DNA from: Tribonema minus | Lineage: Eukaryota; Sar; Xanthophyceae; Tribonematales; Tribonemataceae | DNA length: 64,000 nt | Assembly (NCBI GenBank): GCA_017506865.1 | Contig: JAFCMP010000179.1 | Location: 744,001 to 808,000, forward strand | Reading direction: 5' to 3' | Part shown: in pieces, positions 102-31,833 of the stretch | How positions within the stretch are numbered: the stretch's first letter is position 1 | Layout of the letters: the number at the start of each line of letters is the position of its first letter | The notes under the pieces: model-generated | What the model was told of the DNA's origin: nothing | The model's database searches: none | What the model saw: the letters and a program-made list of their open reading frames with translations, nothing else | Position numbers and translations under genes: made by a program

Positions 102-106
102 CTGCA

Positions 107-8675: not shown

Positions 8676-8695
8676 CTAACCCTAACCCTAACCCT
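8676..8695. repeat. interstitial telomere-type CCCTAA tract
   Basis: Just over three perfect CTAACC units sit well inside the window and are not at a chromosome end. The stretch 8696-9350 contains no exon I can support. Confidence 0.85.
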
Positions 8696-9353: not shown

Positions 9354-10080
9354 GCTCATGGTATGTATGTATGACCTGCACACCAAACAAGGACAGCAGA
9401 CGACAGTCCAATTTAATTCAAATGTGCTGGGATGCAGGCAAGTAGGTATGTAGGTATACAAGTAGTAGGGAAGGTAGTGTATCAGGGATCAGGACCCGCA
9501 GCTCGTGGTATGCATGTATGACCTTTGCACAAACAATGACAGCGGACAACAGACCACTTCAACACTTCAACTCTGCTGGGAGGCAGGTAGGAGTAGGTAT
9601 AAGAGCTAAAGAAGGTAGGGTACTAGGATCATGACATGCGGCCCAAGGCTCATGACGTCTGCACGCACCAGAAGATAGCGGACAACATTCCAGTTGAACG
9701 ATTTGATTTTGCTGGGAGGCAGGTAAGCAGGTCACCAGCGGTAAAGACGGTAGGGTATCAGTGTCATGATATGCAGCCCATGGCATAAATGACGTCTGCA
9801 CGCACCAAGAACAGCGGCCAACACTTCAATTCAACCATCAATTTTGCTGGGAGGCAGGCAGGAAGGCATGTAGGTCTGCACGAGGTAAGGCAGGTAGGGC
9901 ATCAGGGAATCAGGACATGCAGCTCATAATGGTATTTATGTAATAACTTTGCACACAACCAGGACAGCGAGACAACGCCACAGGCCACGGTCGCGTCTGC
10001 ACGCAAGCGCACGCCGTGGGAGGCAGGCATGTAGGTATGCAAGGCGGAAGGTATGTACAGTAGGGGTCTCAGGACACGCA
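9354..10080. repeat. five-copy tandem array, ~135-160 bp unit
   Basis: A unit with CATGxCCT, AACAATGACAGCGGACAAC, TGCTGGGAGGCAGG, GTAGGTAT and ATCAGGAxxxGCAGCTC repeats with period about 138-160 bp near 9354, 9502, 9640, 9775 and 9920. The array abuts 10078-10120, where the minus strand reads LRYGAANERSKPQL between a CAG acceptor and a weak GTGTCC donor. It may therefore be the echo array of that candidate exon. Confidence 0.75.
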
Positions 10081-12007: not shown

Positions 12008-15000
12008 ATGGAATCTGACAGTGGTGGCACAGCGGGGCGCGGCGGCGGCGGCGGTCGCCAGCAGGTATGTACGCCCTTAACCTCAGCCTTCACTTCCGCT
12101 CTGTGCAACCTGAATGTTGTTCCAGTCAGGCAGTTTCCAGTCGGAAGTGTGTCAATTTGGATTTCTTATCTCAGTCAGAGGGTTTTTTCGGCTCACAGGC
12201 ATGCACGGTTTGTGCAGCGATTGCACCGTTGAATGTGTGCAGTGTACGTGCTTTGGTTTGCAGCATGTAATGCATTCCCCAATGTGATGCGTGCATGCTG
12301 TGTGCAGTGGACATGTAGTTTGTAAATACATTGCAGTTGCGTACATAAGGCCGGCCGCATTTCCTCATGTAATGCATCTTTGTTCATTGATGGCAGTGCT
12401 CAAGACCGCTCCTCTCGCATGTTGGGCTCCCTCTTTTGGGCATCTGTTTGTGGGCCAGGGTCATGCCTGTGTGCTCACTCCGTTGCTGAGCCATGTCATG
12501 GCATTGATGACCACGGTGCAGCCCAATGGCGTTGCTGTGCCCTCGTGAGAGTCTGATCCATGCCATTACTGAGCCATGTCATCACGTTGCTGACCACTGT
12601 GCAGCCGCAGGAGCAGCCCGCTCCCCCCTCCATACCGCACTCCAACGCTGCCCACTGTTGACTCATGAGTCAAGCCATTACTGAGCAATGTCATATCGTT
12701 GCTGAGCACTGTGCAGGCCGCCGCAGCGCTGCCCGCTCCGCCCTCCATACCGCGCTCCAATGCCGGGGCCCCTGTTGACTCATGACTCATGAGTCATGCA
12801 ATTGCTGAGCCATGTCATCATGTTGCTGAGTGCTGTGCAGGCTGCAGGAGCATCGCTGCCCGCTCTGCCGATCACCTCACGCCTTAACGCTGTGCCCCCT
12901 GTTGACAAAAATCATGAGTTCATGCCATTACTGAGCCATGCCATCACGTTGCTGAGCGGTGCAGGCCGCCGCAGCAGTGCTGCCCGTTCCGCCGACCGCC
13001 CCACGCTCCAATGCCGGGGCCCCCGTTGACTCATGACTCATGAGTCATGCCGTTGCTGAGCCGTGTCATCGCATTGTGAGCGCTGTGCAGGCCGCAGGAG
13101 CAAGGCTGCCACACACATTTCAATTTTTTTCTGTTGCGTCAGTGTTGGCAACATCATGAGCCATTACTGAGCGATGTCATATCGTTGCTGCGCGCTGTGC
13201 AGGCCGCCGGAGCAGCGCTGCCCGCTCTGTTGACCGCCCCGCGCTCCACTGCCGAGGCCCCTTGTCGAGTGTGATCCATGCCGTTGCTGAGCAATGTCAT
13301 ATATTTGCGGAGCGCTGTGCAGGCGGCCGCGGGGCCTGTTGACTCAGGACTCATGAGTCATGCCGTTGCTGAGCAATGTCATATGTTGCTGAGCGCTGTG
13401 CAGGCCGCAGCAGCAGCGCTGCCCGCTCCGCCCTCCATACCGCGCTCCAACGCCGTGCCGGCTGGCGCGGGCCTCACCCAGGAGCGAGGCGAGCAGATCA
13501 GGTACAGTTCACCAGGATACAGCGGTGTACTGTGCTGACTGGCCGATGACACAGCCCCTGCCATGTGGCGTTGTTATTTGTGCTCCGCAGCACGTTTGGT
13601 AGCATCACAGGCGCCGCATCCCTTGAAGCGCACATGGTACATGTCAATCTTGGGGTAAGTGTTAGGGTCAGGGGCAGGGGCAGGGTTAACCCCAAACGTA
13701 AGGTCACCATCCTGACCCTCACCTCATCCTAGTCTAATCCTAATGCTCACTCCAACCCTAACCCTATATGCTTTGCACACAGTACTGTCACACCTGAACA
13801 CACGGCATGCGTTGTTTCTGTTGTCCTTATTTTTGACAGCACTTTCATGAGCATCACCGGCGCTGACCCTGACATCTCCGCACACTATCTGGAGGTGAGA
13901 GAGCACTCTGGAAGTTTGAAAGCTAAATTTCTGTTTCAACAAAATTGAATGCGAAATTCCTGTCAAATCTGTTAATACCTGCGGCTTTCCTTCAGATTAG
14001 TTGTCCACTGGTTGCAATGAATGAGCAGGCGTCATGCCCATGCTTTGCCCTACGCTTGTGCGCTTTTCATCGACTTCAACCATCTTCAAGTCTGCGGTGC
14101 TTCCTTGCACTTCGTTTTGTTTTGCCTGAGCATCTTGTGCACTTCATCTTCTTGTGCCTGAGCATGGCGCTGCCCGCACCTGGTGCAGATTCCCTTTGTC
14201 TGCCAGTGGAGCATCGCTACGGATCCACGCTGTCAACGTAGAATCGTGTGTTGTGTCAGAAAGAAGCACGTCCCAGAGCGCATTCGTTCGGCCCTGACTC
14301 CGAGAGGGCAGGTTAGAAGTGGGTTTTGGATCTGAGAAAGACCTGCCTGACCACGCCCTAACTCTAACCCTAACCCTAATTGAGTACAGGCCCATGGAAG
14401 TTGGACGTTGAAGTATGGCTTACAGTGCATGGGTATCTCAGATGCAGAACTCGGATTTGTTCTTCTCGCTCTTATGTGCACATAGCTGCAAGCTACTCTT
14501 CATTTTCCACCTTATGTTTGACGTCGTGAGCAGGAGAGGGATGCGAGGATCCATCTGAGATGGACCTATCTGACCTAACCCTAACCCCTAACCCTAGCCC
14601 TAACCTTTACCCTAACCCTGATTGAGCACAGGCCATGGGCTGGCAGCTGGAAGCGGCAGTTACCATGTTCATGGAGGGGAACGAAGAGGGGGGTATGGGG
14701 GGGGGGGGAGGGGGCGGTGGCGGCGGCGGCGGCGGCGGGGGGGGGCTCATGGGCCAAGCCGGCGGAGGCGGCGGAGCGAGCGCGTTTGCCTCTGATGATG
14801 TGGGGTGAGTACTGCATGTAACCAAATGTTTTTAAAAGGTAGTTTCACTTATGATATTGAAGTTACAAGATCACTTTTCTGACGCCAGCGCACTGGCCTC
14901 TGGATATCCATGTGCTGTGCGTGACGCGGGGTGAGTACTGCATGTAGTGTAATGTATGTTGAAGATTCAGTTTAGAAGTTGAAGTTGCTCACAAGGTGCT

Positions 15001-18000
15001 TACATTTTGGCTCTGGCGTGTGCGCATTTGCCGCTGGAGTTTTCTGTTCGTAATGCATGTTAATATCGGCGGAGCCAGCGCATTCGTCTCTGATGATGTG
15101 GGGTGAGTACTGCATGTACATGTATATTGAAGTTTTACTCTTTATGTTGAAGTTACAAGATCAAGCGCGCATTCGCCTCTGATGATATGGGGTGAGTGAA
15201 TGAGTGATGTATGCATCTCTAATCACAGTAAATAAGCATATGATAGTGAGGATGCAGCGCATGAAATTTCATGTGGGGCCAGTGCATTTGCCTCTGATGG
15301 CTTCGCGCGACTCAAGTATTTTGTGTGGTACATGACTTTAAGGCCTGCGCATCTGCCGCCGATGATGTGGGTCGATATGTTGAAGTATGACAAAAAGGAC
15401 TCACTACAGAAGCCGTCTCTACACCTTCACAGCTATGATGAGAAACTGGGGGCTCTGTTGCAGGCTACGGCGGCGGCATACCGTTCATGCACGAACGCCC
15501 CTCGACTCTATGCACAGAACTCTTCACTTCTTGTTTCATGAAAACGAACCAAAAGATCATAGAGCTCTAGGTGACAAGCGGTGATTAGCTGTCGATTGTA
15601 TGCCTCCACCTATAACTTATAGGTAACCGTGGTCGCCGCTGCTGCGGCAATTGGCCATGAGTCAAACAGTGCCACCATTTTTCTTACTTCTGAAGTACGC
15701 TGGAAGTACACGCAAATGTTGCACCCGGCCATATAATACTTGAAAGCCTTCGGTGCCCTGCGACAGTTACCTGGCAGTAGGCTCATTTTAGTATACGTAG
15801 CCTCCCCACACACGTATGCTCCTTGGGGGGGGGGAGGGGTGCATTGCAGTAGTACTCGGTGACTGGTACTCAAAACTATGTTGCTGCGGTGCTGCCTTGC
15901 GACAGGTACCTGACAGTAGGCTCATACTAGTATATATAGCCTCCCCACACATGTATGCTCCTTGGGGGGGGGGTTGCACTGCAGTACTAGTTTTTGACTG
16001 GTATGCAAAATAACCTGTTGCTGCCCTGCTGCCTTGCAACAGGTACCTGGCAAGTCAAATGCGGGCCTACAACGAGGCCACCCAGGTCCTGGGACCAGGT
16101 AAGGCTAGGATTTGAACTCAGTTTAGGGTTGAAGTTAGAGCGTAGCCAGAATCAGGTCGCAGGTGGGGCTACCAATAAGCTGTCGACATCGGCAACCTAG
16201 CATTCACGCCCCTACCTGACAATTTCAGGTGAGGGTAGCTCAACAGGAGCATTAAAAAATGAGGTTGGTGGTTAGGCTTATTACGCAGTTCGTGCCGCGC
16301 TCAGGGGTTAGGGCTAGTCCGAGGGCTAGAGTCAGGGTTGGGTCAGCTACGTTCCAGCGCCACCCCTCATTAGCCATAGTCCATGTGTAACGATGTGCAG
16401 CAGTAGCATGACATCAGCGGTGGTGGTATGTGCGCGCATTGGGGTTGGGTTTAGGGCTAGGGTTATGGTTGGGGTGTGCGCTCTGCAGCGCAGGTGCAGC
16501 AAACAAACTTGAAGATGCTGAAGCACTGCCTCCACGACTGTGAATAGATGGTCATAAAGTTCGCTTTTGGTGTTGAAGTGCTTGACACCTCTTGCGCACT
16601 GGTGCCTTGCTCCTCTGCCTAGAGGGCAACACCATCTGTGGCTGCGGCAGCGTTCTTTTTTCAGTTGTGAGTTCCCAGCATAATGAAGCATCAATTTTCA
16701 CCTGAATTGATGGGCTGTGAAAGTGCGGTCTAGCTAGCGCCAAAATCGGAACCGCAGCGCCACGCGTCTAGTCTAAGCGCATACATACTCTGGCTGAGCG
16801 TTGCTGCACACCGCCACTGCGGCCGAGTCGCACTGGATCACCGCATTGGGCGCGCAACGCAATGCTTCAGTCCGAACCATACCGATGGAGTCATACTTTG
16901 TGATGAGGGCTAGGGTCGACAACTGCCCTCTGTCGCTGACGTGTTGTGCCTAGTGTTAGGGTTAGGGTTAGGGTTAGACCGATCCAGAACTGCCTTCTGG
17001 CGCTGATCATCTGTGACTAGGGCTAGGTCGATAACCGCCTCCTGTCGCTGATAATTTGTGAGTTGGGCTAGGTCAACAACTGCCTCCTGTCGCTGTGCGA
17101 ACCCGCTTGATTTGCTGCATGAGTGCTGCCCCCGCCTCGAGCGCTGCAACGCCTTGATCATCTGCTGCAGAAGAGTCACGCTGATGCTGCATTGCAGCGG
17201 CAGAGGCGACATGGGCTGCCGAGCGCATACGTACCTACCTCCCCCCACGACGCTGCGTCTGACCCCTACACCCTACCCCAACCCCAGCCCCAAGGCTGGA
17301 CACAGCCTCGCTTCAACCCCAAATGTAACCCTACATTGCAGAGGGCGACATGGGCAGAGGCAGCGGCGGTGGAACGGTGCTGTCCGAGCTGCCTCCAACC
17401 CTAGTGTTAGGGTTAGAGTTGGACAACCCATGACTATTGCTACACTAAACCCCCAACCTTAAACCTCGCCCTTACCCTACTTCTGCCTGCTTAACCCCAA
17501 TCTTAATCCTATTTTTATGCCGCAGAAGGCCGAAACATATTTCTGGCTGCTTAACCCCAATCTCAATCTTGTTTTATTGCTGCAAAGGGCGACTTGAGCG
17601 GAGGCGGCGGCGGCGGTGGAGCAGCGCTGTCCGAGCTCTGCTCAGGGCCAGGGTTAGGTCAACCCTAGAAAACCCATGTCCATTGCTACACTGATCTCTA
17701 ACCTTAAACCTCGCCCTACCAATATTTTTGGCTGCTTAGCCCCATATTTAACGCTGTTTGCATGCTGCAGAGGGCGACATGAGCGGAGGGGGCGGCGGCG
17801 GTGGAGCAGCGCTGTCCGAGCCGCAGCCGTTTGCCACCGCAGGCGGCGGCCGACGCTATGACGGACTAGAATCAGGTACTGGAGTCATGTATGCGCAATA
17901 CTTCTATGTCACTTGAAGTATAGACACATGTCGTTCAGTACCGTCAGCAGCGCGCAGCGATACGAAGCGCTGGCGGCTTCTGCTATTGGAGTCATGTATG

Positions 18001-21000
18001 CACAATATACGTTCTGTTCAGGGTTTATGTTTTCTGGACTATAGATGAATGTCGTTTGCCATCACCGGCAGCGCGCGGCTTTCGTGGCGGTGTAGTCAGG
18101 TACTGGAGGCATGTATACGCAATGTATACGCAATATAATTCCTAAGTACGTACGTACTTCAAGTTCTAGTTTTCTGGAAGCATAGACACGTATCATTTGC
18201 CACTACCGGCAGCGCTCGACGCTATGGCGCACCGGAGTCAGGTACTGGAGTCATGTACGCGCAACATACTCCCCAAGTACGTACTTCAAGCTTCAGTTTT
18301 CTGAAAGCATAGGCACGTATTGTCTGCCACCGCCTGCGGCGTGCGGCGGTACAACGCTCTGGAGTCAGGTACTGGAGTCATGTATGCGCAATATACGTAC
18401 TTGAGTTTACATTTCTTGAGGTAAAGACGCATGTCGTTTGCCGCTGTCGGCAGCGCCTGACGCTATGATGCGCTGGAGTCAGGTGCTGGGCCAGCAGAAC
18501 TGCAGTACACCACACACCACCAGATCCATGCAAGAGTGATCATTGTGCAAGTGCAGGCAAGGCAGGTGACGCTCCCACTTGTCACTGCTCAGCAAGCCCT
18601 AAGCATAGGGCGCACGCGATGCTACCACATGTACGCATATCGTTTGCCACCACCAGGAGTGCTGTGATGCGCTGGAGTCAGGCACGTTGAACTTGCACTT
18701 GAAGTCACGGGACCAGTGCCGCATCTCCCTTGCTTGCGCACCAAACAGCTCGGACGTAGTGTCGATAGCGCCACACGCATGCATACACTGTGAAGTTTTT
18801 TTTTTCATCACTGCGTATTGTGGTACATGTAGTCGTATGATCAGCACTGAATCATCACGACCATAGCAAATTGTCCTGTGCGCAGTGCTGGCCGGCTCTA
18901 GATAGCCCGGACCTGAAACAATGGCGCAAAGGTCCCTTTTATTGCGCAGCAAAGTCTAGAATAAGAGGGATTACCTGATTCATGCCCTCCCTGCACGAAA
19001 AGTGAGTGTATATGCGTTGAACTTGCACTTGAAGTCAGTGACTGAGCGGAGGTCGGGCGCCCGCCGTTCTCATGTACTTGTAAAGTCTGTTCGCGTGTGA
19101 GTTTCTTCGACACAATCTCTTGCTGTGCAGCGCTGGCCGGTCTTGACGGGCTGGACCTATGGAAACGAATCGAAAGATCGTAGAGCTCTAGGTGACAGAG
19201 GATGGTTAGCCGCAAGTGCCTTCCACCAATAACCGTGGTCGCCGCTGCTGCAGTCATTGGCCACCTATAATAGACGACGGAGCGGAGGTCAGGGGCCCCC
19301 GCCATTTTCGCATGCATGATTTAAATTCAATATATATATATATATATGCGCACGCGTGTTCTCCTCAACACAATATTTCGGTGTACGATGATGTTCCTGA
19401 CTTGTGGTGGCCAATCTAAATAATTTCATCGTCCTGCCGTGCAGCGCTGGCGGGTCTTGATGGCCTGGACCTAGACGGCGGAGCGGAGGTCAGGGCACCC
19501 GCCCCGCGACTGCACGACACTCTCATACACACGCCCGTGTCGGCGCTGCAAAGGTGAGCATGTAACTTCAACTTATGCATAACTTCAACTTGTGTATAAC
19601 TTCAACTCTGAGGTCAGGGCACCCGCCCCGCGACTGCACGACACTCTCATACACACGCCCGTGTCGGCGCTGCAAAGGTGAGCACACAAAACTTGGACTT
19701 ATTTACAAATTCATTTTGTCTCTGAAACTTCAACTTTGGTATAACTTCGACTTTGAGGTCAGGGCACACGCCCGTGTCGGCGCTGCAACGGTGAGCACAC
19801 AACTTCAACTTATTCACAAATTTCATCTTGAAACTTCAACCTTGGTATAGCTTCAACTTTGAGGTCAGGGGCCCGCCCTGCCGGCATGAGACTCTCATCC
19901 ACACGCCTGTGTCGGCGCTGCACAGGCGAGCACACAACCCCAACTCATATATATATATGTGTGTATAACCTCAATTTTGAGGTAAGGGCCCCCGCCCCCC
20001 GCCTGCACGACACCCTCATACACACGCCCGTGGCAGCGCTGCACAGGCGTTTACACAAGTTCAACTCATGTAGAACTTAAACTTGTGTATAACTTCATTT
20101 TTGAGTTCAGGGGCCCCGGGCACCTGCACGACACCCCCATACACACGCCCCTGGGGGGTCGCTGCATAGGCGAGCATGAACGTCAACTTGTGTAAAGCCT
20201 CAACATGTGCGCAACTCTTGTGTACAACTTTCAACTCTTACTTCACACTCAACAGCTATGAAGGCATTGTATGGTGTTGTTTGAAGCGCATTCAGATCCC
20301 GTGGGGGTCGCTACGGGTAAGCACTGACTTGTGGACAACTTGAAGTGTGACTTCAATCCTGAGTACGAGCCACGAACCTTTGCTGATGGCACTCCGGTTG
20401 GAATGGATAGCTGTGCCGCCCTGTGTCTCTTATTCATTTATTTATAAACATGTCAACATGCACTACATATGCGCACATTCAGGAATGGCGATAACATTGT
20501 GGGCACTCGCGATGCAGCATGGAGCGATTGGCGATACCGCTGTTTTGATAGAAGTGACGCTGTCGTTTGCGCTGCAACTCTGGCGGATATGTCTACGCTC
20601 AGTCACCCTGGGCCCCACCCTCAAAACCCTTGGTAAACTTCAAGTGAAGAACACACATCAAACGCTCTCCACATTTGCCTTTGGATGTGCATTCTTGCAC
20701 GCGCGTGTGCATTTGTATACATACAGGGTTCTTTGTATACAATTCTTCGCACGCGCACCCATCAAGTACATCCAAGCTTCTCAGGCCCCGCTCAACCACG
20801 GACTATGGTGTCTATTCTCATGTACATTCAAAGTGTGGTTCTTGAAGTGTATACTTCCAAGTGGGGAGTGCGCACGCGTCGTGATATAAACCTTGGTCAC
20901 AACAGCGCTCAGCCACTGTGTCCCTGCCTGTGTCTGCACTGCTCAGAGGCGGAACAATGATGCCTGCGGACAGCGCACTTCAACTACCCAATGCTGAGGT

Positions 21001-24000
21001 GAGCACACGTAACTGCAGCACTGACAGTGCACTTCAAGCACCCAATGCAGAGGTGAGCACACGTAACTGCAACACTCAGTCACTGTCCCTGCTCCATCCG
21101 CATTGCTCAGAGGCGCCCCGAATAGCCTCGTGATAAGCCGAAGAAACACAAGCGCCAACCCTTACTCTAACCCTTACGTCTCGTGAGGAGAAGGTGTGCA
21201 ATGGCTGGTGCTGCGAACACAGCTTCCTGACCCTGCATTCACAGCATGTTGTGCATGCTACTTCACAGCGTTCCGATGGCGCTCTCAAGTACTTGCAGTT
21301 GACGTACCGATAGTCCGCACGCTTGGACGGCAGCAGAGGCGCCTTGAAGCTGATGGCTGACGCGTGGATGCCTCGGCAACCCACTCTAGGCATGTGCTTT
21401 AATTAAGCCAGCTTGTGAGCTCATGGCGCGTGATTAGGGTTAGGGTTAGGGTTAGGGTTAGGGCGGAGGCGCCTTGAAGCTGATAGCTGACGCCTGAATG
21501 CTTTGACAGCGCACTCCTGCTTTGAGTGAGCTCGCGACGCGCGGTTAGGGTTAGGGTTAGGATTAGGGATTAGGGTTAGGAGTAGGTTTTTGTCCCCTGC
21601 CACATCTGCCAGCATGGAAAGTGTGCTGTGTTCATGCGCGGGGGGGGGGGGGGGGGTCATTTCCCTCAAGTGTGTCAATAGTACTTCAAAGTTTTGCGCC
21701 TGCGACACTGCAGTGATGACCATGTACATGTATAGCTGGCAAGATTTGCTGCATGCGCTGACACTCGCCGCATGCGAAGGGGGGAGAGCTCAAAGCACGT
21801 TGTACTTGGAGAGTCCTTGGAGAGTAGTTCAAGTGCGAACGAGTTGTTGTTTGAGTGCTTTTCCCCGCCGCGACAAATATGCCGTATGTGCTGACACAAT
21901 GAATTCGGCGAGCGAGCGTGCAGGGGGAGAGCACAGAGGATATTGACTTGTAAGTAATGTTTTCTGAGTACTTCGACATGTACTCTACAGTAAATCAGGA
22001 GTGCTTCAAGTGTCTGTGCCCGTGACACAGTAAATAACTGTGTACGATTGGTGCCAAAATCATCCGCATGTGCTCATATGGAAAACGCGCTCTGCGTTCG
22101 CGCAGGGAGAGAGCACGGAGTGGCTTTTTTCGCCGCCAACGGACATGGCTGGTGTTGCCGTGCCTACGAGAGCTTGGCTTTGTGCGGCCTAGCAGAATGT
22201 GAATGGCTGCCACACGCTCGCCTCCCCCTTTCTGTGCCCCCTTGCTGGTTCCTGGTTTTTGGCCCCAATTTTTTCTCTAAATTGCCGAAAACTCTGACAT
22301 GTGCTCATATGGAAAACGCGCTCTGCGTTCGCGCAGGGAGAGAGCACGGAGTGGCTGTTTCCGCCACCGACGGACATGATAGAGCGGTCCAGTTTCAGCG
22401 ATACGCGGCAGGCAAGTCACCGTAGAAGTTGTACTTGCAGTTTATGCTGTGCCTTGTTCCACATGCACCCCTTTCTTGTTTCGGTTGTCTGTTTCTCACA
22501 GGGCAAACCATGCCAGCAAGCAGTTTCTCCGCAGAAGTATTACAGAGCCTTCGATGTCACGCCTGAATAGCATGCGAACCCCGGCGCGTCTGAAGTTTGA
22601 AAAGAAAATGCAGTTTACGTGGTTGCGGCTCCTGAATTTGACTTGCACTTGGCATACCATGTGTTTCTTCAGCCTTCATGTGCCTCAAAGGACTGCTCCC
22701 TATGCCAGCCCACCAGCCAACGCTCAGCTGCACTGCTGCAGCAGGTGCCTTGCTGATTTGTGCGTGCACAGTCTCGCTGATTTGTGTTGGCCAACCAACA
22801 AACACTCCGCTCCCTTGCATGTGCACCTCTTAGCAGCAATGTCACAACCTGTCAGGCCTGTTCCCCAATTGCAGGCATGAGAAAACGTACGGCCGCAACT
22901 TGCTCATGCCTTTGGTCGAGGCTCTGTCATGACGTTGCGCCGAACAGCTGTGCGCTGCTGTAGCAGCCGTTTCTGGGGGTCATGCACCCATCCACATACC
23001 TCAGGAATGTGTTTCTGAGAACCATTGCTTCGGTGTGGCTCTGTTGTGGCCGTGCCGCCTTCTATTAATCCAGTCCCCAATCTAGCCCTAGCCTAACCCT
23101 AACCTGGTCACCATTTATCTACAGCCGAGCTCTCTTATGCGCGCGATGCCATCGTGAGTGACTCACGCCATGATCGTCGCGCATGCATCTGAGCTCTGTT
23201 ATGCGCGCACGCGATGCCATTGTGAGTGACTCACGCCACTATCGCCACGCATGTGTTGTACGTGCCGTTACTGCAGGCGTGCCGGCAGCGCAAGGAGTGG
23301 ATCATGGTCAACATTCAGGTTCGTCGTCAACTGGGTACAGTGTACCCTGAACGTCAAGTACTACTTCAAGATAATCTTGCGGTGACGCGCCCGCTTCAAG
23401 TGTGTGCATGTTGCTGTTTATAAATGTTGGTGAGCAGTAACCCTAGCCCTAACCCTAGGTATGTCCGTTGGCTGCTCCCGTCGGTGCAATTGCACACATG
23501 TGACATGTCACCAATTTGTGAGTACAAAGCCACGTTTACAAATCCACGGGTACATGACTCAGTGACCTGTCTTCATTGTCGCTGCGGTGACTGCAAGAGG
23601 GCTCCAATTTTCTGCAAGTTTGGTGACAAATCCACGAGTACATTCTATGAGTACCAGCTCATGATTAGTAGTACACGAGTACGTGAGTTCATGACCTGGC
23701 TTGGGTTGCTAACCTTTCATAACCTTGCAATTCTTTGCAAGTACAAGTCCAACAGTGGAAGTAACATGAAGAAAAGTCCACCACATTAGTGTATGTCCCT
23801 TGGCTCTCGCTGCTGTGATGCCACCTGTGACTTGAAGTCCATGAGTACATGAGTGAACGTCGCGGACTCGCCGTGACTCGCTATATGAGTGCATGACCCG
23901 TGATTCGCTATATGAGTGCATGACTCGCTGACCTTCTTCAAACCTCAAAGCCTCTGAGAGAGCAAACGCATTAGTGAAAGGACATGATTGTGCGTCGTCA

Positions 24001-27000
24001 TGACTCGTCCTTTGGCTCTCACTGCTGTGATGCCTCCTGTCTACAACTTGAAGTCCATGAGTAAACGACTCCGACTCGACGTGACTCGCTGCCGCGACGC
24101 AGGACCGCTCCAATCCTCAAAACGCTTTGTGAGGTCGAGTCCATGAGTTCAAGTACACGAGTAGATACACCAGTCACTTTCTACATGAATGTACATTTTT
24201 TTATTATAAAGAGTACATGAGAATTAATAAAAAGTACATGGGTACATGACTTATTTGGCTGTTTGTGGCTGCTACAAGTACATAGGTACTCGAGTTGTTT
24301 TTGCGGGCTGCCGCAACATTAGTGTACATGGAATTAGTAAGAAGTACATGATAATTAATAAAAAGTACATGCGTACATGACTTATTTGGCTGTTTGTGGC
24401 TGCTACATGTGCAGGACCGCTCGGTGTTTGCAAGCCACAGGCTCAACCGCGACGTCTGGAGCGACGAGACAGTGCGCGCCCTTGTCTCAGAGAGCTTTGT
24501 CTTCTGGCAGCGCGAGGTCACCAGGTATGTATTTATGTGAACAATGTACTCGCTTTGTGTACTTTTGATGCATGTAGGATGATCACACCACGCGAGGATC
24601 GTGTGCGGTACTTCATAGGCACGGTGTCAACAACGTAATGCATGACTTTGATGCTAGCCTTTTGTCTCAGAGAGCTTTGTCTTCTAGCAGCGCGAGGCCA
24701 CCAGGTCTGAGCAGCATGTATATCATGTACTTGGTGTATGTACTTTGACGTATGTAGGGTGATCAGTTCGCCAGACGACGAGGTACGTACGCGTGTATCT
24801 ATGTATGCATACATGTTTGTATGTATGCATACATGTTTGATAAATCAGAGCACACAAGCAGGTACTTCGCAGAAGGGATTGTTTGCAGCACGATGCGACC
24901 AGCCTAAGATCAGGGTTAGGGTTAGGGTTATGTTTAGGTTTGCACGGTGAGTAGAACACAGACGCTGCGGCATGCGCAATGGCGCAATGCCAGTGACCAT
25001 TCAATATACGTCTCGGTGCTCTCCCCCCCCCCCCCTGCCGCCCCTCTCCCCTCGTGACACAGCGACAGCGCTGCTGCAAACGCTACGCTGCACACAACAT
25101 GACGCTGTCTACAGCCAACAATTCACATCGCAGTGCTCCAATGTCCCCCCGCCCCCCCCCCTCCCCCTCGCCATCATGATGCAGCGAGGACGCACAGGGC
25201 TTCTGCGAACGCTGTAGCATGCGCAGCGACGCGCTGCCTGTTACTGCCATCATTGATCCGCGCTGCTGCCATTAGCAGCCCCGCTCACTGCTGCTGTCCC
25301 CCGTTCTCATCACGATGCAGTGAGGATGCACAGGGCTTCTGCGAACGCTACAGCGCATGCAGCGACGCACTGCCTGTAACTGCCATCACCAACGAAAACT
25401 CAGACCTGTCTCTGTCATGCCGCGTACGCGTCTGAAGGCACACCGGGATGCACAAGGTTGCTGCCATGCACGACAATGTTCACCCCCCCCCCCCCCTTCC
25501 CCCCTCGCCCCTCTCTCCGTCGTGACACAGCGACAGCGCTGCTGCAAATGCTACGCTGCGCACACTGTGACGCTGTCTACAGCCATCAGCTCACATCGCA
25601 GTGCTCAAATGCCCTCCCCCACCCCCACCCCCCCATGCCATCACGATGCAGCGAGGATGCGCAGGGCTTCTGCGAGCGCTACAGCGTGCGCAGCGACGCG
25701 CTGCCTGTGACTGCCATTATTGACCCGCGCACAGGCGGTATGCTGGTGCGTGTGGAGGGCTTCATCAGCCCGGAGGTGCGTCACCTGTTAAAGATCACCA
25801 AAGTTGAAGTAAGCAGTGCGCGGCAAACGCGTTGACTGGATTGCTCGTGCCCATTGCAGACTTCATCGGCCGCCTGTGTTGAAGTTTATGAAAATTTGAG
25901 TAGGTACTGCAGTTCCGCTGTTGGCGTGCTGGTGTGTGTTGAGGGCACCGACAGTTCAAGTGCGCATTCGCTGTCGAAGTTAATCAGTTGCTTGAAGTTG
26001 CTGTCGCTGGGCACTTGACTCCGTGCCAGTGCACTTGTGGCACGGTTCACTGCAACCGGTGCTTTGAATCAGCTCTGGCAGCATGCATGCCCCTGACGGG
26101 GGGCGTGGAGCGAATGACATTATGTGTTGAGGTCACTGTTTGTGCGCGCGTGCATGTTATTTGCAGCAACCGCCATTTGTCCCAGGCCGAATGCTTCATC
26201 ACCACGCGCCTGCGTACATGCACCTTTGGATAACCATTTGGTGGCACTGCATCCTGTGTGATTGCTTTGCTCCTGTGTGTTCGACTGCAAGTTTATGTGC
26301 AGAGATGTGAATTTCTGAGCTCCTCACTTTGAATGCTGTCATGTGCATGCAGGATATGTTTTCGTTTGATGACATTTTTTCACTCTGAGCACCGCGCCAG
26401 TAATGCGTGTGCAGCATGTACTTTAAAAATTTGAAGTTGAATTTGTCACTGAGCGCTGCCATCACGCGTGCGCAGGACATGTCATCGCTCATCATGGAGA
26501 TCATGGAGTCGCGCAGCACTAAAGCGGCATTACGTGTAGGCAGTACTTCAAATTCAAGTTGAACTTAGTACTTTAAAATGAAGTTGACCTTATAACTGCC
26601 GTGCGCAGGACAAGTCATCGCTCATCATGGAGTTCATGGAATCGCACAGCATATTATGACGTGTAGGCGGTACTTCAAATGCAAGTTGAACTTATCACTG
26701 AGCGCTCGTGCGTGCGCAGGACATGTCATCGCTCATCATGGAGTTCATGGAATCGCACAGCATGGAACGGCTCCCCAGCACGGCACCGAAGCTCAGGGTC
26801 ATTGGAAGGAAGTCGTCGTTCGCAGGGTGAGGGTTAGGGTTATGGTTTGCAGGCTATGAACGTGAGGGTTAGGGTCAGGTTAGGGTCAGGGTTTGCAGAA
26901 CGTCCTTGTTCGCAGGGTGAGCTCTGAGTGTAGTTCAGAGTTGCTGAGCATTCGGCTGACGCTACATTCAGCGCTGATTAACCGGATACATTTAGCAGTA

Positions 27001-30000
27001 GTTGCTGCTTCACCTGATATTACCACCCAACCCCGGGGCCACTGGCAGGAAGAGCTCCACAGTTGGGACGAGACAAGTCATTTGTTCGTTACTCTCGTAC
27101 TCGTAGAAGCACTCGTACGCAAGTACTCGTACTGTACGAGTACTTGTACATGATTTCGGAGGCAGTACTCGTGCAGTACGAGTACTCGTACATGGATCCT
27201 GGGGCGGTACTCGTACAGGACGATTACTCGTACATGATTTCGGAGGCCATGCTCGTACAGGACGAGTACTCGCACATCATTCCGGAGGCAGTACTCGTAC
27301 AGCACGAGTACTCGTACACGATTGTCATACCAGAACTCGTACAGTACTCGTACTCGTTTACTCGTCTCGTCCCAAGTGTGAAGAGCTCATTTGCAAGGAT
27401 ACTTTGTTGAGGGTCACAGCGAAGAGTGGGCATTTTTGACGTGCAATGCACCACTGATGGATAGTATCAGGCAACGATTGCTGCTTCAAACCATCCCATG
27501 GTGCTCTTAAGCCAGGGGGGTTGCTGTACAAGTTTTCGCCAGTTTGCCGCACAAATGTAAGATGTTTTTGGCAACATGTGCCTCAGATCTAGAAACCAGC
27601 AGGGGGACACAAGGCGCTAAGGGGCAATGGTGGCCCTAACCTAGCCCTCGTGCTCAACCTGAGAACGCAGATAACATGTGAAGCAGTCTCGCGTACATGT
27701 GAGCACTGGACAACCAACGAACTCGGCTCAATGTGGGCCCAGCTATATAGCTTGCTGTGTCTTCTGTGATGTCACGAGTGCCTGGCACGATTGTTTGCAA
27801 GATTCAGTCAGCCGTAGCCGCCCTGGTTCTGACCCACTTGTGAATGTCGTAGGGCAGGGCGATCGAACAGGGAAAGCTCGCTTGCTTGCGGGGCGAGCTT
27901 CAACTCTGCAGGGTGGACTTGAAGCGCAGCTTGCCGCCATGGCAGTGAAGTTGCAGTTCGGCTGAGGAGTGAAACCATGCCGACAGATAGTACTAGGCAA
28001 TAGTTCATTCTTCAACTCCTGTTTGATGCCAAAAAACTGAGCATCATCAGCCGCACAATGGTCTGCAGGTTCACACATCAGGTTCACACGTCGTAGCTGC
28101 CGTGTCCTGTGCTGAGCGCTGCTGTGTGGTTCTGCGGCGATGGCGGCACGCAACATGACCTCATGACGGAGCTGGTCATCGGCTTCTCGTCGTCAATTTG
28201 CTGTACGCTTCGAAGTCATTATCGAGATATTCATGTGCACGCCTATAGTGGAGCTCGGCCATTGACCTGGGTGTCAGTGCTCAGCGTCAACACTCATTAC
28301 ATTACATTCACGGTGTGTGCACTTCACGTCATGAATATACTGTTGCACCCACAATGGAGCTTCTGCAGTCTAAAGAACTGAGTGTACCTGTTCAGTTTAA
28401 TCATAACTTTACGCTTCAGTGCATGATTTCAATGTATGCACGCTGGGGATGGATCAGCCAAAGAGCTGAGCATTGCTGCTGCACATTCACATGCACTTTG
28501 GTGCATGAACATGTAACGCACGCTTGCCATGAAGATTTTTGTAGTCACAAAGGTGAGTTCCGCCCAGTCCAGTGGTATGCTAAGAACACACTTCGGTGCA
28601 TGGTTATTACGCTTAATCGGGATGGAGCACAGAGCTGAGCATTGCTGCTGCGCCCTGCGCTGCGCAGGCATGAGGATGAATCATCGGAGTATGCCGCCAA
28701 TCACAGCGCTGACGAGGCTTACGAAGACGGAGACGCAGCCGAGGAAGCACAGGTGGGATGTTGAGCGTTGTGCATGCCAGTTTGGCCTTATTTTGATGGA
28801 AACGCATCAAAAGGTCGTAGAGCTCTGGGCGACAAGGAGTGGTTGGCTGCAATTGTCTCTGCCAATGACAGTGGTCGCCGCTGCTGCAGTCATTGGCCAC
28901 GAGACAAATAGTGCCATCATATCCACAGCAGTCAAAAGACTTATGTGTGCAAGCTTTCTAACGTTGGAGGCATGAAGACTTTTTAATTTGATTCTGGCAG
29001 GTGGGGGGGATGTCGAGCACTGTGCATTCCATATTGGCCTTCATTGTGGAGATCTCGATCAGTGCTGGCAGGTGGGGGCGCATCGAGCGCTGTGCCAGTT
29101 TGGCCTTATTAATGCAGTTTTTGATCAGTTCTGGTATGCGCTGCGGACACCGTCTCTTTGAGCTGCGCGTCATTGCTGGCAGCAGCGGCAGCGCCAAAGG
29201 CCTTGCTCTTGCCTGCTTAAAGCGCTCAATGCCCACCGCCTCATGTGGTTCAACGGTGTGAGCCGCTTGATCATCCACATCGGATGTCACCTAACCCTAA
29301 CTCTAACCCTAGCCACACATTCCAGCCCCCCTGTCTATGTGGTCGCTGACCCCAAAACCTATGTCGTCTCGCAGTGTTATCGCTCACATCAGTTGTTGCG
29401 CTTGGTGCGTGTCGCCTCTGCAGGAGGAGCCTCTGCCCGATGAGCCGTTGGGGCTAGGGTTAGGGTTTGGTATGAGCTGCTTTATCATCCACATCGGACG
29501 CCTCCTGAACCTACCCCTAGCCACAAATCCCTACCCTCTTTCTGTGTGATCACCTGACCCCAAAACCACGCTGTTACTGCGTTGTCGCTGACATCAGTTA
29601 TTAGTAACTTATTACAGTTGGTGCCTGTCGTCTCTGCAGGAGGAGCCTCTGCCAGAAGAGCCGCCGGCAGATGCGCCCAATGCGACGCGAGTGCAGATAC
29701 GCCTCGCAGGTGAGGCACCTTATTGGGGGACTTGTGTCTACAAGAATGGTAGACCATGCTCCGGAAGTGAACGCACAAGATCAGCTTTTGATGTGATTAT
29801 TCGTTCAAAATGGTCCAGATGAGCCGCCGGCAGATGCGCCAAATGCCACGCGAGTGCAGATACGCCTTGTAGGTGAGGCGCCTTATCAGGGGACTTGTGT
29901 CTGCCAGAACAGGAGAAAAGTTGGACCAGGCTCCGGATGCATTCGAATGGGGTTGATTTTATTGTGCTGTGTGTGTTCAGATTACCGCAAGGACATATCC

Positions 30001-31833
30001 GACCAGGCCATTTTATGAAAGCAATCGGATCAATCGCGCACTGGCATCGACAGCTCCCACCCCCGTGTAAATCATTTTGACTGCAGAACGAACTTGTAAC
30101 ATCGAGTTGCCAATATGGCGGCCTGGCTTCCGGTGGCTGAGGGCTTCAATGTGGCAAACTTCAGATGTGGCGTTGTACAACATCCATCTGTTTGGATTGC
30201 TTGTCCACCGGCATGCTACAGTAAACACGTGATGCCGTTGGATGCTGCAGTGCCATTGCTGCAGCGAGTGTAGCATATGACACAGGTGTGACGACAGAGA
30301 GGTTGAGCGCGTGCAACGTATGACTAAGGGTACAGGTGTGGTGACTTGGGACTTGTTCGTGCTTGAGCTGAGCTTTCCGGCACGCGCACTTCAGTGCGCA
30401 CGTGCACGGTAGCCTCAGTTTCGTGCCTGGAAGGAACTACGTAACATAGGCCGCATTATGTCACGAGGGACTTGCTCAATTCCTGCGCCGATCGCGCATT
30501 GGGGTCGCTACAGTGCGTTTATGTTTCAAGTACACGATGTGCGCACAACTGGCATACTTTGAAGTAGGGTGAACGTGTAGAAGCGAAGGTCACAAATTTG
30601 CTCAGTGATCGGGGCACTTTGAGAGTATGCACTGTAGCAACCATGTAAGCATGGAGGCCATTGAATCAAGGCTGGAGCAAAACTATGTGCAGCATAATTC
30701 ATTTTTCTACCTGCTTGATTCGTGTGTGGATTACGCACACGCATCATCAGTGCTCGACTCTTGGTGTATGCTCATGTGCTAAACGAATCAGCTCTAGTGC
30801 TCCTTCTCTATGCACGCTATTTGCAGCGCTACGGGGCCTTCTCTATGCGTGCTAGAAGTATTTGAAGCTCTGCGCGCGCTCTGTTCTCATGTTGCCCCCT
30901 TGCTGTTTCCTCCGCCCTGTACCGTTTCTATGTGGCGGCCAAGCAGATGGCGGCAGCACAGTGACGCGCCGGTTCCTGCTGACCACGCCCGCCACCGCGC
31001 TATTTCAGCTTCTTAAACAGCAGGTGAGCAAGTCATCCGTTGCAAGAGTCTGGGCTGAATAGTATATACGAAGTAGCAAAAATTAAAAACTTTAAAGGCA
31101 GCAATTAACTCAACCAAAAAACAATTATCGCCAGTTTTGGTATGCTCTCTTGATGTGTGCTTGGCGAGCATCGTAGTGTCTGGACGATTAGGAGCGGACC
31201 ATGTGGAGTGCGATACGAGCCGCACGCATCGAGGGGTACATGCCATATACAGTAGGGTTGAAGTTACGTTTAGGGTTAGTTGACCACGACCCACCGACAG
31301 CACTCGCCTGTCTGTGTGAGTTTTCCACCTTCGCACACTGTAATGTACTCTATGCTGAACTGGGGCACTCCTCCTGAAACAGAATGATTAGGTTTGTTGT
31401 CCCCTCTTTGTCCAATGCATGTTCCCGATGCTGGTTCTCTGCCGGAGGCTGTTGCACAACGGCTTTTCAAGCTGGGTATTGCAAACAATTCTCCAATAAA
31501 ATGCGAGTGTCGCGCACAACTGCCTATGTACTCTTAGAAGCCGCACTTGACGCCGATGCTGCTTCTGTGCAGGTGCCAGAGGCTGCAGCAGAGCGGCCAT
31601 TTGAGCTGGTGACAGCAAAATAGCCTTCAAGTGTGTAATGCGAGCGACTTGCACGACAACCTTTCGTTGAACTTGGGATCGATGCTGCTTCTCTGCAGGT
31701 GCCGGAAGCTGCAGCGGGGCGGCCGTTTGAGCTTGCGTCGACCTTCCCACGGCGCACCGTGTCAGCGAGCAGCGGCCAGACACTGGCGGAAGCGGACCTG
31801 GCTAATTCAGCGCTAGTCATGCGGTGGTCATGA
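12008..31833 (+). CDS. UBXN7-like: UBX-domain protein 7-like Cdc48/p97 adaptor, 17 exons
   Basis: Exons: 12008-12064, 13404-13501, 13840-13894, 14632-14804, 16043-16098, 17771-17875, 19445-19553, 20947-20998, 22337-22411, 23277-23318, 24415-24524, 25652-25775, 26720-26826, 28668-28752, 29640-29709, 30947-31023, 31699-31833. They sum to 1530 nt (509 aa plus TGA) and every junction keeps phase. The UBA-like domain (about 52-86) reads FMSITGADPDISAHYLE then AMGWQLEAAVTMFMEG; a poly-Gly linker follows, then EVRAPAPRLHDTLI. The UAS thioredoxin-like domain (about 236-370) has EWLFPPPTDM, WIMVNIQ, SHRLNRDVWS, FVFWQ and AIIDPRTG. An acidic linker leads to the UBX domain (about 433-509) with TRVQIRLADGG and the p97-contact FPR at about 481-483. 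In this family UBA binds ubiquitin and UBX docks on the Cdc48 N-domain for degradation of ubiquitylated substrates. Human UBXN7 is of similar length; I see no clear UIM. Exons 5 and 6 rest mainly on phase. The ATG is the first one joined in frame to exon 2. Confidence 0.92.
12599..13403 (+). repeat. eight-copy echo array ending at UBX exon 2
   Basis: The intron end plus exon start (GCTGAGCGCTGTGCAG|GCCGC...) recurs with its GTGCAG at 12599, 12711, 12835, 12959, 13085, 13197, 13317 and 13398. Spacings are 112, 124, 124, 126, 112, 120 and 81. Only the last copy continues into the full exon 13404-13501. Most copies also carry TGACTCATGAGTCA or halves of it. Confidence 0.9.
14805..15375 (+). repeat. 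donor-side echoes of UBX exon 4
   Basis: The end of exon 4 (GCCTCTGATGATGTGG then GGTGAGTACTGCATGTA) is repeated near 14884-14945, 15066-15115, 15163-15200, 15275-15310 and 15345-15375, with progressive decay. A single acceptor-side echo of exon 4 lies upstream at about 14386-14410. Confidence 0.85.
15538..15681 (+). repeat. dispersed ~165-bp repeat, copy 1
   Basis: Related to copies at 19160-19265, 28797-28956 and (minus) 54124-54290. Shared words include AGAGCTCTAGGTGACA, GTGGTCGCCGCTGCTGC and ATTGGCCA. It lies in UBX intron 4. It may be a SINE or MITE; no terminal repeats or Pol III boxes are obvious. Confidence 0.8.
15690..16042 (+). repeat. acceptor-side echoes of UBX exon 5
   Basis: Units containing CACACATGTATGCTCCTTGG, a G-run and GCTGCCTTGCxACAGGTACCTG occur at about 15690-15790, 15791-15910 and 15911-16050. 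The last runs into exon 5. Confidence 0.85.
16917..17100 (+). repeat. four-copy ~50-65-bp tandem repeat
   Basis: The unit GGGCTAGGTCxAxAACTGCCTxCTGTCGCTG recurs at about 16915, 16979, 17028 and 17071 in UBX intron 5. A perfect TTAGGG run lies at 16955-16977. Confidence 0.8.
17160..17770 (+). repeat. acceptor-side echoes of UBX exon 6
   Basis: Copies of TGCAGAGGGCGACATGxGC plus GGCGGCGGTGGAGCAGCGCT occur at about 17200, 17335-17395 and 17579-17640 before the functional exon at 17771. Intron blocks (AACCCATGTCCATTGCTACA, CTTAAACCTCGCCCT) are duplicated with them. Confidence 0.85.
17876..18700 (+). repeat. donor-side echoes of UBX exon 6
   Basis: The end of exon 6 with its donor (CGACGCTATGxCG...GGAGTCAGGTACTGGAGTCA) recurs about six times at roughly 17950, 18080, 18210, 18335, 18450 and 18640. 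Most copies continue into TGTATGCGCAATATAC intron sequence. Period is about 115-130 bp. Confidence 0.88.
18884..19300 (+). repeat. acceptor-side echoes of UBX exon 7
   Basis: The exon 7 start (GCAG|CGCTGGCGGGTCTTGA) is echoed at about 18880-18910 and 19125-19158. The inner block GGCGGAGCGGAGGTCAGG is echoed at about 19044 and 19277. Confidence 0.8.
19160..19265 (+). repeat. dispersed ~165-bp repeat, copy 2
   Basis: Same family as 15538-15681: it starts GGAAACGAATCGAAAGATCG and includes GTGGTCGCCGCTGCTGCAG. It is truncated at its right end where exon 7 echo sequence begins. Confidence 0.8.
19329..19347. repeat. (TA)n microsatellite
   Basis: A short TA run lies in UBX intron 6, with another TA/TG run near 19948-19965 in intron 7. 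Confidence 0.85.
19554..20180 (+). repeat. five donor-side echoes of UBX exon 7
   Basis: The coding stretch for EVRAPAPRLHDTLIHTP plus the GTGAGCA donor is repeated at about 19612-19690 (almost identical), 19755-19800, 19860-19930, 19978-20050 and 20104-20175. Between copies the DNA is rich in AACTTCAACTT. These are the freshest echoes in the window; several still read in frame. Confidence 0.92.
20999..21125 (+). repeat. echoes of UBX exon 8
   Basis: The exon 8 end (GCACTTCAAxxACCCAATGC then GAG|GTGAGCACACGTAACTGCA) has a second copy at 21028-21070. An acceptor-side fragment (GCTCAGAGGCG) reappears at 21105. Confidence 0.85.
21340..21590. repeat. tandem unit ending in telomere-type repeats
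   Basis: Two ~125-bp units start GAGGCGCCTTGAAGCTGATxG and end in TTAGGG runs. The run at 21434-21463 is five perfect TTAGGG copies, the longest in the window; a degenerate run lies at 21544-21580. They lie inside UBX intron 8. Confidence 0.88.
21641..21657. repeat. G homopolymer
   Basis: An uninterrupted G run lies in intron 8. Similar G or C runs occur at 1136-1165, 1309-1323, 25021-25034, 25484-25494, 41192-41202, 57227-57241 and 57523-57538. These are likely hot spots for length error. Confidence 0.8.
21780..22336 (+). repeat. acceptor-side echoes of UBX exon 9
   Basis: The block GTTCGCGCAGGGAGAGAGCA plus GCACGGAGTGGCT occurs at 22088-22150 and, more decayed, at about 21770-21800 and 21905-21945. 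The functional copy starts at 22337. Upstream intron (ACATGTGCTCATATGGAAAA) is duplicated with it. Confidence 0.87.
22410..22413 (+). other. GC donor of UBX intron 9 (GC-AG intron)
   Basis: Exon 9 ends ...GATACGCGGCAG followed by GCAAGT, the usual context of the minor GC-AG class. It is the only position that keeps both phase and the UAS-domain reading into exon 10. Confidence 0.75.
23126..23276 (+). repeat. acceptor-side duplicates before UBX exon 10
   Basis: Two ~63-bp units share AGCTCTxTTATGCGCGC, GATGCCAT and GTGAGTGACTCACGCCA. The second leads into the exon 10 acceptor. Confidence 0.75.
23520..24414 (+). repeat. GAGTACATG-rich intron with nested duplications
   Basis: UBX intron 10 is dominated by words such as CATGAGTACATGA and ACGAGTACxTGAG. 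It holds a ~200-bp duplication (about 23800-23900 versus 24010-24100, with GCTCTC[GA]CTGCTGTGATG). It also holds acceptor-side echoes of exon 11 (ATTAATAAAAAGTACATG, TTTGGCTGTTTGTGGCTGC) at 24230-24290 and 24355-24405. Confidence 0.75.
24660..24710 (+). repeat. donor-side echo of UBX exon 11
   Basis: TTGTCTCAGAGAGCTTTGTC plus the following TTCTxGCAGCGCGAGG is repeated nearly identically 180 bp after exon 11. It is followed by GTCTGAG in place of the functional GTATGT. Confidence 0.85.
25055..25651 (+). repeat. acceptor-side echoes of UBX exon 12
   Basis: The exon 12 start (GATGCAG|CGAGGATGCGCAGG and onward) is echoed at 25178-25260 and 25313-25395, both still coding-like (QGFCERYSACSDALPVTAI). 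A more diverged pair lies at 25058-25135 and 25523-25600, adjacent to poly-C runs. Echoes cover half or more of the exon. Confidence 0.9.
26471..26719 (+). repeat. acceptor-side echoes of UBX exon 13
   Basis: GCGCAGGACATGTCATCGCT and the following CATCATGGAG are repeated at 26471-26515 and 26604-26650, each followed by GTACTTCAAAT-rich intron. Only the copy at 26720 reads through to exon 13's end. Donor-side fragments recur at 26896-26925 and about 27030-27055. Confidence 0.9.
27062..27378. repeat. palindromic tandem repeat with inverted ends
   Basis: About six ~42-bp units each contain TACGAGTACTCGTA, a perfect palindrome, separated by ATGATTTCGGAGGCAGTACT-like spacers. The block is bounded by TTGGGACGAGACAAGT on the left and its inverted counterpart ACTCGTCTCGTCCCAA on the right. 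Both strands are open by chance of composition. It lies in UBX intron 13 and may be a hairpin-type mobile element with internal amplification. Confidence 0.8.
28440..28667 (+). repeat. acceptor-side echo before UBX exon 14
   Basis: AGAGCTGAGCATTGCTGCTG occurs at 28461 and 28631, the second leading into the exon 14 acceptor. CTTCxGTGCATG and AGAACACACTT-type words are shared. Confidence 0.7.
28797..28956 (+). repeat. dispersed ~165-bp repeat, copy 3 (most complete)
   Basis: It spans TGGAAACGCATCAAAAGGTC through GTGGTCGCCGCTGCTGCAG to GTGTGCAAGCTT. It lies in UBX intron 14, where it separates donor-side echoes of exon 14. Confidence 0.85.
28995..29115 (+). repeat. donor-side echoes of UBX exon 14
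   Basis: The exon 14 donor region (CAGGTGGGATGTTGAGCGTT plus TTTGGCCTTAT) recurs at 28998-29045 and 29068-29112. Confidence 0.8.
29280..29890 (+). repeat. echoes on both sides of UBX exon 15
   Basis: The start of exon 15 (CTCTGCAGGAGGAGCCTCTG) has an upstream copy at 29417-29450, with duplicated CATCATCCACATCGGA intron and CCCTAA tracts. Its end (GTGCAGATACGCCTxGxAGG then TGAGGCxCCTTAT) has a downstream copy at 29817-29910. Confidence 0.85.
31425..31698 (+). repeat. acceptor-side echoes of UBX exon 17
   Basis: TTCTGTGCAGGTGCCAGAGG and about 45 further bases form a copy at 31560-31622 that reads VPEAAAERPFELVTAK then stops. An older copy lies at 31430-31485. The functional copy is at 31699. 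Skipping to the first echo would truncate the UBX domain. Confidence 0.88.

Follow-up and report, generated by a model that had tools for sequence, protein, structure and literature searches.

The window analysed here is a 64,000-nt stretch of the genome of Tribonema minus, a yellow-green alga belonging to the PX clade (contig JAFCMP010000179.1, positions 744,001–808,000 of the forward strand). On its plus strand, at 12008–31833, lies a UBXN7-like gene of 17 exons (hereafter UBX), whose 509-aa product contains the Pfam domains UBA_4, Thioredoxin_7 (UAS, thioredoxin-like) and UBX and has a UBX domain-containing protein 7 as its top match among solved structures. The 16 introns of the gene are 338–1841 nt long, occupy 12065–31698, and most of them carry additional direct copies of their own splice junctions, each copy being composed of an exon end and the adjoining piece of intron. 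We call these copies echoes, and the copy used in splicing the working copy. The gene model is supported by the transcript-derived EukProt protein P0001, which is 94% identical to it and covers 13 of the 16 joins in a single alignment block free of gaps (joins 4–16; joins 1–3 fall beyond P0001). This alignment indicates that the working copies at joins 4–16 are identified correctly and that no echo is included in this mRNA, which agrees with the statement of a preliminary description of the locus that the functional copy is the one joined to the exon body.

Two tests were used for counting the echoes. In the relaxed test (a minimum of 5 nt on both sides of the junction, E ≤ 1e-3, every intron searched separately), 37 echo copies were found at 17 of the 32 UBX junctions and in 13 of the 16 introns, two of them being weak: those in intron 3 (CCCTAA-rich) and intron 13 (E 4e-4). 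The strict test (at least 8 nt on each side and at least 35 bits) retained 14/32 junctions and 11/16 introns; since whole-sequence searches overlook some near copies, such as that of the exon 8 donor, the strict counts represent lower bounds. The proposed figure of at least 14 introns out of 16 is therefore slightly high. Intron 2 contains a candidate echo recognised by eye only (13592–13621), and introns 9 and 10 contain intron-only repeats, of which that in intron 10 stops 2 nt short of the acceptor. Self-comparison of the gene revealed 48 direct pairs, 27 of which include a true junction, as compared to 14.4 ± 4.0 for shifted junctions (none of 5000 shifts reached 27). Direct pairs strongly predominate over inverted ones within the introns of UBX (50 vs 3) and of CCT5, a chaperonin gene considered below (28 vs 0), as well as in the whole window (570 vs 27 matches), while dinucleotide-shuffled introns (three shuffles per intron in UBX) gave no pairs in either gene. 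An Rfam search of the sequence returned nothing at gathering thresholds.

Together, UBX and CCT5 contain 51 distinct junction-spanning copies under the strict test, which represent local direct duplications including or creating splice sites; this kind of copy was found throughout UBX, as had been suggested, and also in other genes. Several head-to-tail copies of one unit are present in the arrays of exons 2 and 7, as detected by Tandem Repeats Finder (TRF). The copy numbers given previously for these arrays proved correct, since the exon 2 acceptor has 7–8 echoes and the exon 7 donor has 5, in addition to the working copy (8 and 6 copies had been reported); the exon 12 acceptor, with 2 echoes and the working copy in an array, also falls within the reported 3–5 copies. 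The exon 6 donor has only four spanning echoes instead of about seven. The idea that divergence grows with distance from the working copy was not borne out: in nine arrays of at least 3 copies each (from seven genes' worth of data), the rank correlation between identity and distance was negative in four, positive in four and zero in one. The features of the gene are listed in Table 1.

Table 1. Exons of the UBX gene and the junction copies found in its introns (positions in the window)
Feature	Position	Strand	Remark
Exon 1	12008-12064	+	
Exon 2	13404-13501	+	
Exon 3	13840-13894	+	
Exon 4	14632-14804	+	
Exon 5	16043-16098	+	
Exon 6	17771-17875	+	
Exon 7	19445-19553	+	
Exon 8	20947-20998	+	
Exon 9	22337-22411	+	
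Exon 10	23277-23318	+	
Exon 11	24415-24524	+	
Exon 12	25652-25775	+	
Exon 13	26720-26826	+	
Exon 14	28668-28752	+	
Exon 15	29640-29709	+	
Exon 16	30947-31023	+	
Exon 17	31699-31833	+	
Array of exon 2 acceptor echoes	12480..13330	+	7-8 echoes; working junction 13403/13404; also detected by TRF
Exon 4 acceptor echo	14355..14397	+	marginal; 7 exon nt; CCCTAA-rich
Exon 4 donor echoes	14922-14946, 15067-15163, 15167-15197	+	three echoes
Exon 5 acceptor echo	15754..15915	+	10 exon nt
Exon 6 acceptor echoes	17337-17392, 17422-17530, 17537-17636	+	
Exon 6 donor echoes	18053..18489	+	four echoes
Exon 7 acceptor echo	19118-19159 + 19271-19303	+	split by 105-bp dispersed repeat 19160-19264
Exon 7 donor echoes	19610..20209	+	five echoes
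Exon 8 donor echo	21023..21071	+	54 nt downstream of working copy
Exon 9 acceptor echo	22067..22147	+	95% identical to 22298-22378
Spacer between exon 9 copies	22148..22297	.	dispersed-element fragment
Repeat of intron end before exon 11	24203..24282	+	partner ends 2 nt before acceptor; not spanning
Exon 11 donor echo	24662..24765	+	
Exon 12 acceptor echoes	25039-25263, 25298-25386	+	two echoes
Exon 13 acceptor echoes	26434..26652	+	two echoes
Exon 13 donor echo	26882..26921	+	weak (E 4e-4)
Exon 15 acceptor echo	29303..29447	+	
Exon 15 donor echo	29815..29909	+	
Exon 17 acceptor echo	31554..31607	+	

The copied exon sequence comes almost exclusively from the exon end which faces the intron harbouring the copy. 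For the 71 exons with a length of 100 nt or more, 74 of the 82 matches between an exon and its flanking intron derive from the facing end, and the other eight are interior segments of 15–35 nt. Counted by exon side, the facing end is involved in 37 of 40 cases, as compared to 4.8 expected for randomly taken exon fragments. Tandem exon duplication, which gives rise to mutually exclusive exons, also leaves extra exon-like copies within introns, and in that case the duplicated unit is a complete exon including its two splice sites. We rejected this origin for the echoes since none of the 82 matches reaches the far edge or spans the whole exon.

Echoes resemble their working copies more closely in the exon part (87% identity in the 51 copies) than in the intron part (80%), as would be expected if selection maintains one of the two exon parts. 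In 44 of the 51 echoes, both bases of the splice dinucleotide are still those of the working copy, so the suggestion that introns are loaded with decoy splice sites holds. Extending the exon to the echo site introduces an in-frame stop in 48 of the 51 cases, and the use of an echo would therefore be harmful. Hence, echoes look like decaying relics rather than exons. The longer the introns are, the more duplicated sequence they hold (Spearman 0.46, p 1e-5, 82 introns of 15 genes): the mean duplicated fraction is 6% in introns shorter than 500 nt, 18% at 500–900 nt, 30% at 900–1300 nt and 31% above. This is in line with the proposal that introns grow from exon-edge DNA, since the introns richer in local repeats are longer.

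To UBX we added 14 further gene models from the chaperonin family and from random 10-kb stretches. In these 15 genes, strict echoes were found at 48 of the 164 junctions and in 37 of the 82 introns. CCT5, whose joins are all matched gap-free by the transcript protein P0020 (12/12), has them at 14/24 junctions and in 10/12 introns. The near identity of P0001 and P0020 to the gene models indicates that these transcript proteins derive from a strain of this alga or from a close relative. CCT8, whose model is gap-free over 7/7 joins with P0140, an annotated protein of this genome, has them at 5/14 junctions; its further echoes start just 3–4 nt before an acceptor and thus fall under the strict margin. 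Other genes are nearly echo-free, including a CCT1-like gene (named by eye; 1/18 junctions), another CCT gene (0/14) and an HSP60-like gene (1/10), so that these three chaperonin genes together have echoes at 2 of 42 junctions; a P450-reductase-like gene has an echo at 1/14 junctions and PGK at 0/4. The claim that nearly every intron carries echoes describes UBX, with the reservation made above, and does not hold in general.

These counts depend on how the models were built. The models outside UBX, CCT5 and CCT8 are predictions with family-level support only, made with a self-written gene finder which used splice matrices trained on UBX and which calls many extra exons when its penalties are loose. 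The exons of the 15 genes were hand-picked, and predicted exons judged to be false or lying outside the confirmed domain were dropped: the first two of HSP60, one of four in HSP60b, two of four in CCTy, the last three of PGK, the last two and an empty one of CPR, the first four of UPF0029, the last four of GH47, and the first and last of MYB, while the first exon of CCT1 was shortened. The predicted genes in loci L005, L006, L009, L010, L012, L013, L014, L017, L018, L020, L021 and L022 were left unused, as were the minus-strand genes of other loci except CPR, the partial gene CCT_C279p, and the CCT loci on C516 and at C235:871 kb. The missing pieces of five genes (including C51 and C135) were added after overlapping matches had been seen in C51, C5 and C135. 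Echoes were the reason for the original choice of UBX and played no part in that of the CCT family or the random stretches; CCT5 and CCT8 were chosen for the protein searches because of their echoes. In L022 (3758–4278), predicted 27-nt exons are repeated in frame (AQASAMQRD-like) and resemble coding mini-exon repeats, not echoes.

The arrangement of the copies is essential for dissecting their origin. The recognisable blocks are mostly 45–90 bp long and the copies lie mostly 130–340 bp apart. Among the 35 pairs with at least 90% identity in a 316-kb sample, 4 are directly adjacent, and in 26 the copies are separated by more than 50 nt. Therefore, the term “tandem” used in the preliminary description suits a minority of pairs and the arrays, and does not suit most pairs. 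Isolated two-copy loci account for 32 of the 54 spaced pairs. The flanks outside the blocks are mostly unrelated (13% of 75 score at p < 0.05; mean score 7.3 vs 4.7 for the null, p 0.05). In the same sample, 26 of the 54 spacers match elsewhere, mostly within their own locus and in a few cases at distant places. When ten spacers were searched in the whole genome (158 Mb, 554 contigs), eight were single-copy and two held dispersed repeats.

On balance, we favour the explanation that echoes are relics of frequent direct duplications arising in place, probably by the repair of staggered breaks, and filtered by splicing. Short direct duplications would arise frequently in Tribonema minus genes. 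Those which are wholly exonic or carry a whole exon would alter the protein and be lost. When a duplication straddles a junction, one copy stays on the exon body and would be the one used by the spliceosome; the mature joins supported by proteins use only this copy (13/16 in UBX, 12/12 in CCT5, 7/7 in CCT8). The other copy would become intronic, leaving the mRNA the same and the intron longer. Because the mRNA bears no trace of a duplication across one junction, such a duplication is free to drift and to lengthen the intron, and the stranded copy would then decay. Some loci would expand further into arrays of 3–8 copies, probably by unequal exchange. The initiating lesion is most likely a long staggered break or two offset nicks, whose fill-in would duplicate the overhang, and some DNA may occasionally be caught between the duplicated overhangs, as the exon 9 pair, which resembles an 81-bp target duplication, would suggest. 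Staggered-break fill-in would fit in-place direct copies of this size.

The main rival to staggered-break fill-in is the duplication of longer units followed by trimming: echoes would be what is left of old abutting duplications that subsequently lost their intronic halves through deletion or replacement. Some pairs do abut (the exon 8 donor; 7975–8108), the arrays repeat whole units, and the similarity of flanks is slightly over the null. However, flanks and spacers are unrelated even in pairs with 95–100% identity, which leaves little time for trimming, and we treat this origin as a tentative alternative, less probable than the duplication in place.

Another possibility is that junctions themselves are hotspots, that is, splice junctions, or transcription and splicing at them, attract breaks or replication errors. 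The repeat clusters do contain junctions at about double the frequency obtained under rotation: 13 of 23 clusters in UBX vs 6.9 ± 1.7, and 14 of 16 in CCT5 vs 7.0 ± 1.4 (in both genes, none of 3000 rotations was as high). The number of junctions covered did not reach significance against rotated positions (p 0.058, 0.106, 0.074), as long arrays meet junctions by chance. Repeat coverage near a junction (0.41) did not differ significantly from the intron mean (0.32; p 0.12, and p 0.10 with exons masked). Local direct repeats are also found away from junctions, at 20% of pseudo-junctions vs 15 of the 32 real ones (at least 40 bits).

The raw excess is partly due to ascertainment: in the exon half of a pair only one of the two copies decays, which keeps this half recognisable for longer. 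We therefore compared, with exons masked, real exon edges with the edges of masked pseudo-exons placed within introns. At 32 bits, repeats occurred at 34/164 real and 216/1584 pseudo edges (ratio 1.54, gene bootstrap 1.12–1.97, p 0.008), and at 40 bits at 28/164 and 195/1584 (p 0.046). The pseudo edges lying inside junction-born arrays make this ratio conservative, which favours a hotspot; yet the excess is small, and CCT5 taken by itself shows it weakly or not at all (7/24 vs 68/264 and 56/264 in two runs). Much of the apparent centring is survivorship via the splicing filter combined with easier detection, and a modest real preference for junctions is possible and not established. The view that duplications centre on splice junctions is thus retained in part, as regards the twofold enrichment of clusters, and reduced to about 1.5-fold after masking. 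Similarly, the comparison of junctions with other places, which had been proposed as a check, gave a mixed outcome: repeats are common within introns too, yet the exon-masked ratio remains above one. We consider it unlikely that a hotspot is the general cause, and the same doubt applies to its stronger version, in which breakage linked to transcription or splicing at the boundaries duplicates them, so that introns consist largely of copies of their own exon edges, with intact decoys as a by-product.

Insertions of mobile elements with very long target duplications might also create echoes. At the exon 9 acceptor, an 81-bp direct repeat exactly flanks a truncated dispersed element. This element occurs at about 40 other places (41 matches including its own, with 40 of 140 candidates being scored). 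In seven of its copies, the shared sequence extends leftward while the right end is common, which would be the pattern of a 5'-truncated retroelement; near the element, in L045, only three frames of at least 110 aa are present. However, these seven copies have no abutting repeat, and the eight single-copy spacers among ten speak against mobile DNA as the general source of spacers. The other dispersed sequence, the 105-bp repeat of intron 6 (2043 candidate places at a first look, with the 40 that were scored showing 96–98% identity), sits inside the exon 7 acceptor echo and not between copies. It is possibly a short interspersed element (SINE), and stretches resembling it by eye occur near 15541 and 28794. 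Mobile elements as a general cause of echoes are largely refuted, and we regard this origin as very improbable.

An equally poor candidate is selection for functional decoys, by which echoes would be kept as alternative, stepwise or poison splice sites. The survival of the dinucleotides in 44/51 echoes, the acceptor CAG positions, which in UBX alone are nearly unchanged, and the stops, as poison sites would give, are compatible with such a role. However, with UBX and CCT5 pooled this retention is not clearly over the expectation of 76%, and the scores of adjacent positions are just as high; we therefore do not claim selection on echo splice sites. Moreover, the transcript proteins contain no echo and many genes have none. 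Misassembly is hardly credible as the source of the copies, which differ from their partners by many substitutions and indels (70–95% identity), are mostly direct and follow the exon-edge rule in many genes.

Duplication in place with splicing as a filter remains our preferred explanation, and several observations weigh against it. Most young pairs are spaced and have mostly unrelated flanks, which plain slippage does not yield; DNA caught between the copies was shown only once, with eight of the ten spacers being single-copy, and a direct repeat adjoins none of the seven further copies of the exon 9 element. The density of copies varies greatly among genes, some of which have hardly any. An excess of about 1.5-fold at real edges survives exon masking, so splicing as a filter may explain only part of the pattern. 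Finally, the break-repair step leans on work in mammals.

In mouse and human cells, breaks with 3' overhangs of about 50 bp lead to small tandem duplications through fill-in by Pol alpha-primase (PMC8355091). These resemble Tribonema echoes in being direct, in place and tens of bp long; in the excerpt they are described without spacers or arrays (PMC8355091). In the potato RdRp gene, a single tandem duplication across an intron–exon boundary created an intron (PMC4974935). As in Tribonema, the directly copied segment runs from the last part of an intron into the exon that follows, and in the upstream copy the exonic part became intronic; the difference is that potato represents one event, with a new intron formed via a cryptic donor, whereas in Tribonema there are dozens of copies at acceptors and donors, with arrays and longer introns. 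No new joins were seen in Tribonema, where the mature joins equal single-copy exons.

Introns are also known to be gained through tandem duplication of AGGT segments of exons (PMC3443670; Drosophila cases in PMC2891723), which likewise involves a local duplication made intronic by splicing. In that route, exon sequence is duplicated to make both splice sites, whereas the Tribonema block already includes a genuine junction and is rarely derived from the interior of an exon. The dispersed elements known as introners, which have short (3–9 bp) target duplications (PMC9860276), resemble echoes in adding repeated DNA to introns genome-wide. They form families of similar elements, whereas the Tribonema repeats are local to their own junction; introner identity was tried and does not fit, eight of the ten spacers searched being single-copy. 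Among the best-ranked matches in open-licence PubMed Central, we found no report of junction-spanning duplications this frequent, nor of Tribonema introns.

The source of long introns is an open question, for which transposons are the usual answer. In the introns above 900 nt of the 15 genes, about 30% of the sequence is represented by local direct repeats, and the exon-edge copies are the part of intron duplications which can be recognised with certainty. If the same is true genome-wide, Tribonema would offer a natural experiment: duplications would escape selection because they are spliced out, the lengthening of introns could be counted, and intact decoys would accumulate. Since nearly all echoes (48/51) would give a premature stop if used, they test how the spliceosome picks the right copy. 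Our exon predictor called echoes as exons, and gene models in such genomes therefore need transcript support.

Some further features of the window may be mentioned. The donor of UBX intron 9 at 22412 is GC (GCAAGT) instead of GT, and GC is likewise present in three of the exon 7 donor echoes. An exon-like segment of 61 nt with AG and GT flanks (20256–20316) has a phase clash with exon 8 and is not in the transcript protein. Short TTAGGG/CCCTAA tracts are located at 21434–21463 and in other introns, and the word TTGAAGT/ACTTCAA recurs in introns and at other loci. Upstream of UBX, in an unmodelled gene region at 100–9976, local direct repeats cover 50–67% of four of five 2-kb bins, and a perfect 66-bp tandem pair lies at 7975–8108. 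The region 33500–62500 is almost without local direct repeats (2.9% of pseudo-junctions, at least 40 bits), except at about 40–41.4 kb and 53–55 kb. On the minus strand, leucine-rich-repeat-like open frames and copies of exon-like segments were recognised by eye amid direct repeats at 39700–41500, and a 440-aa open frame at 36460–37779 appears by eye to be ankyrin-repeat-like.

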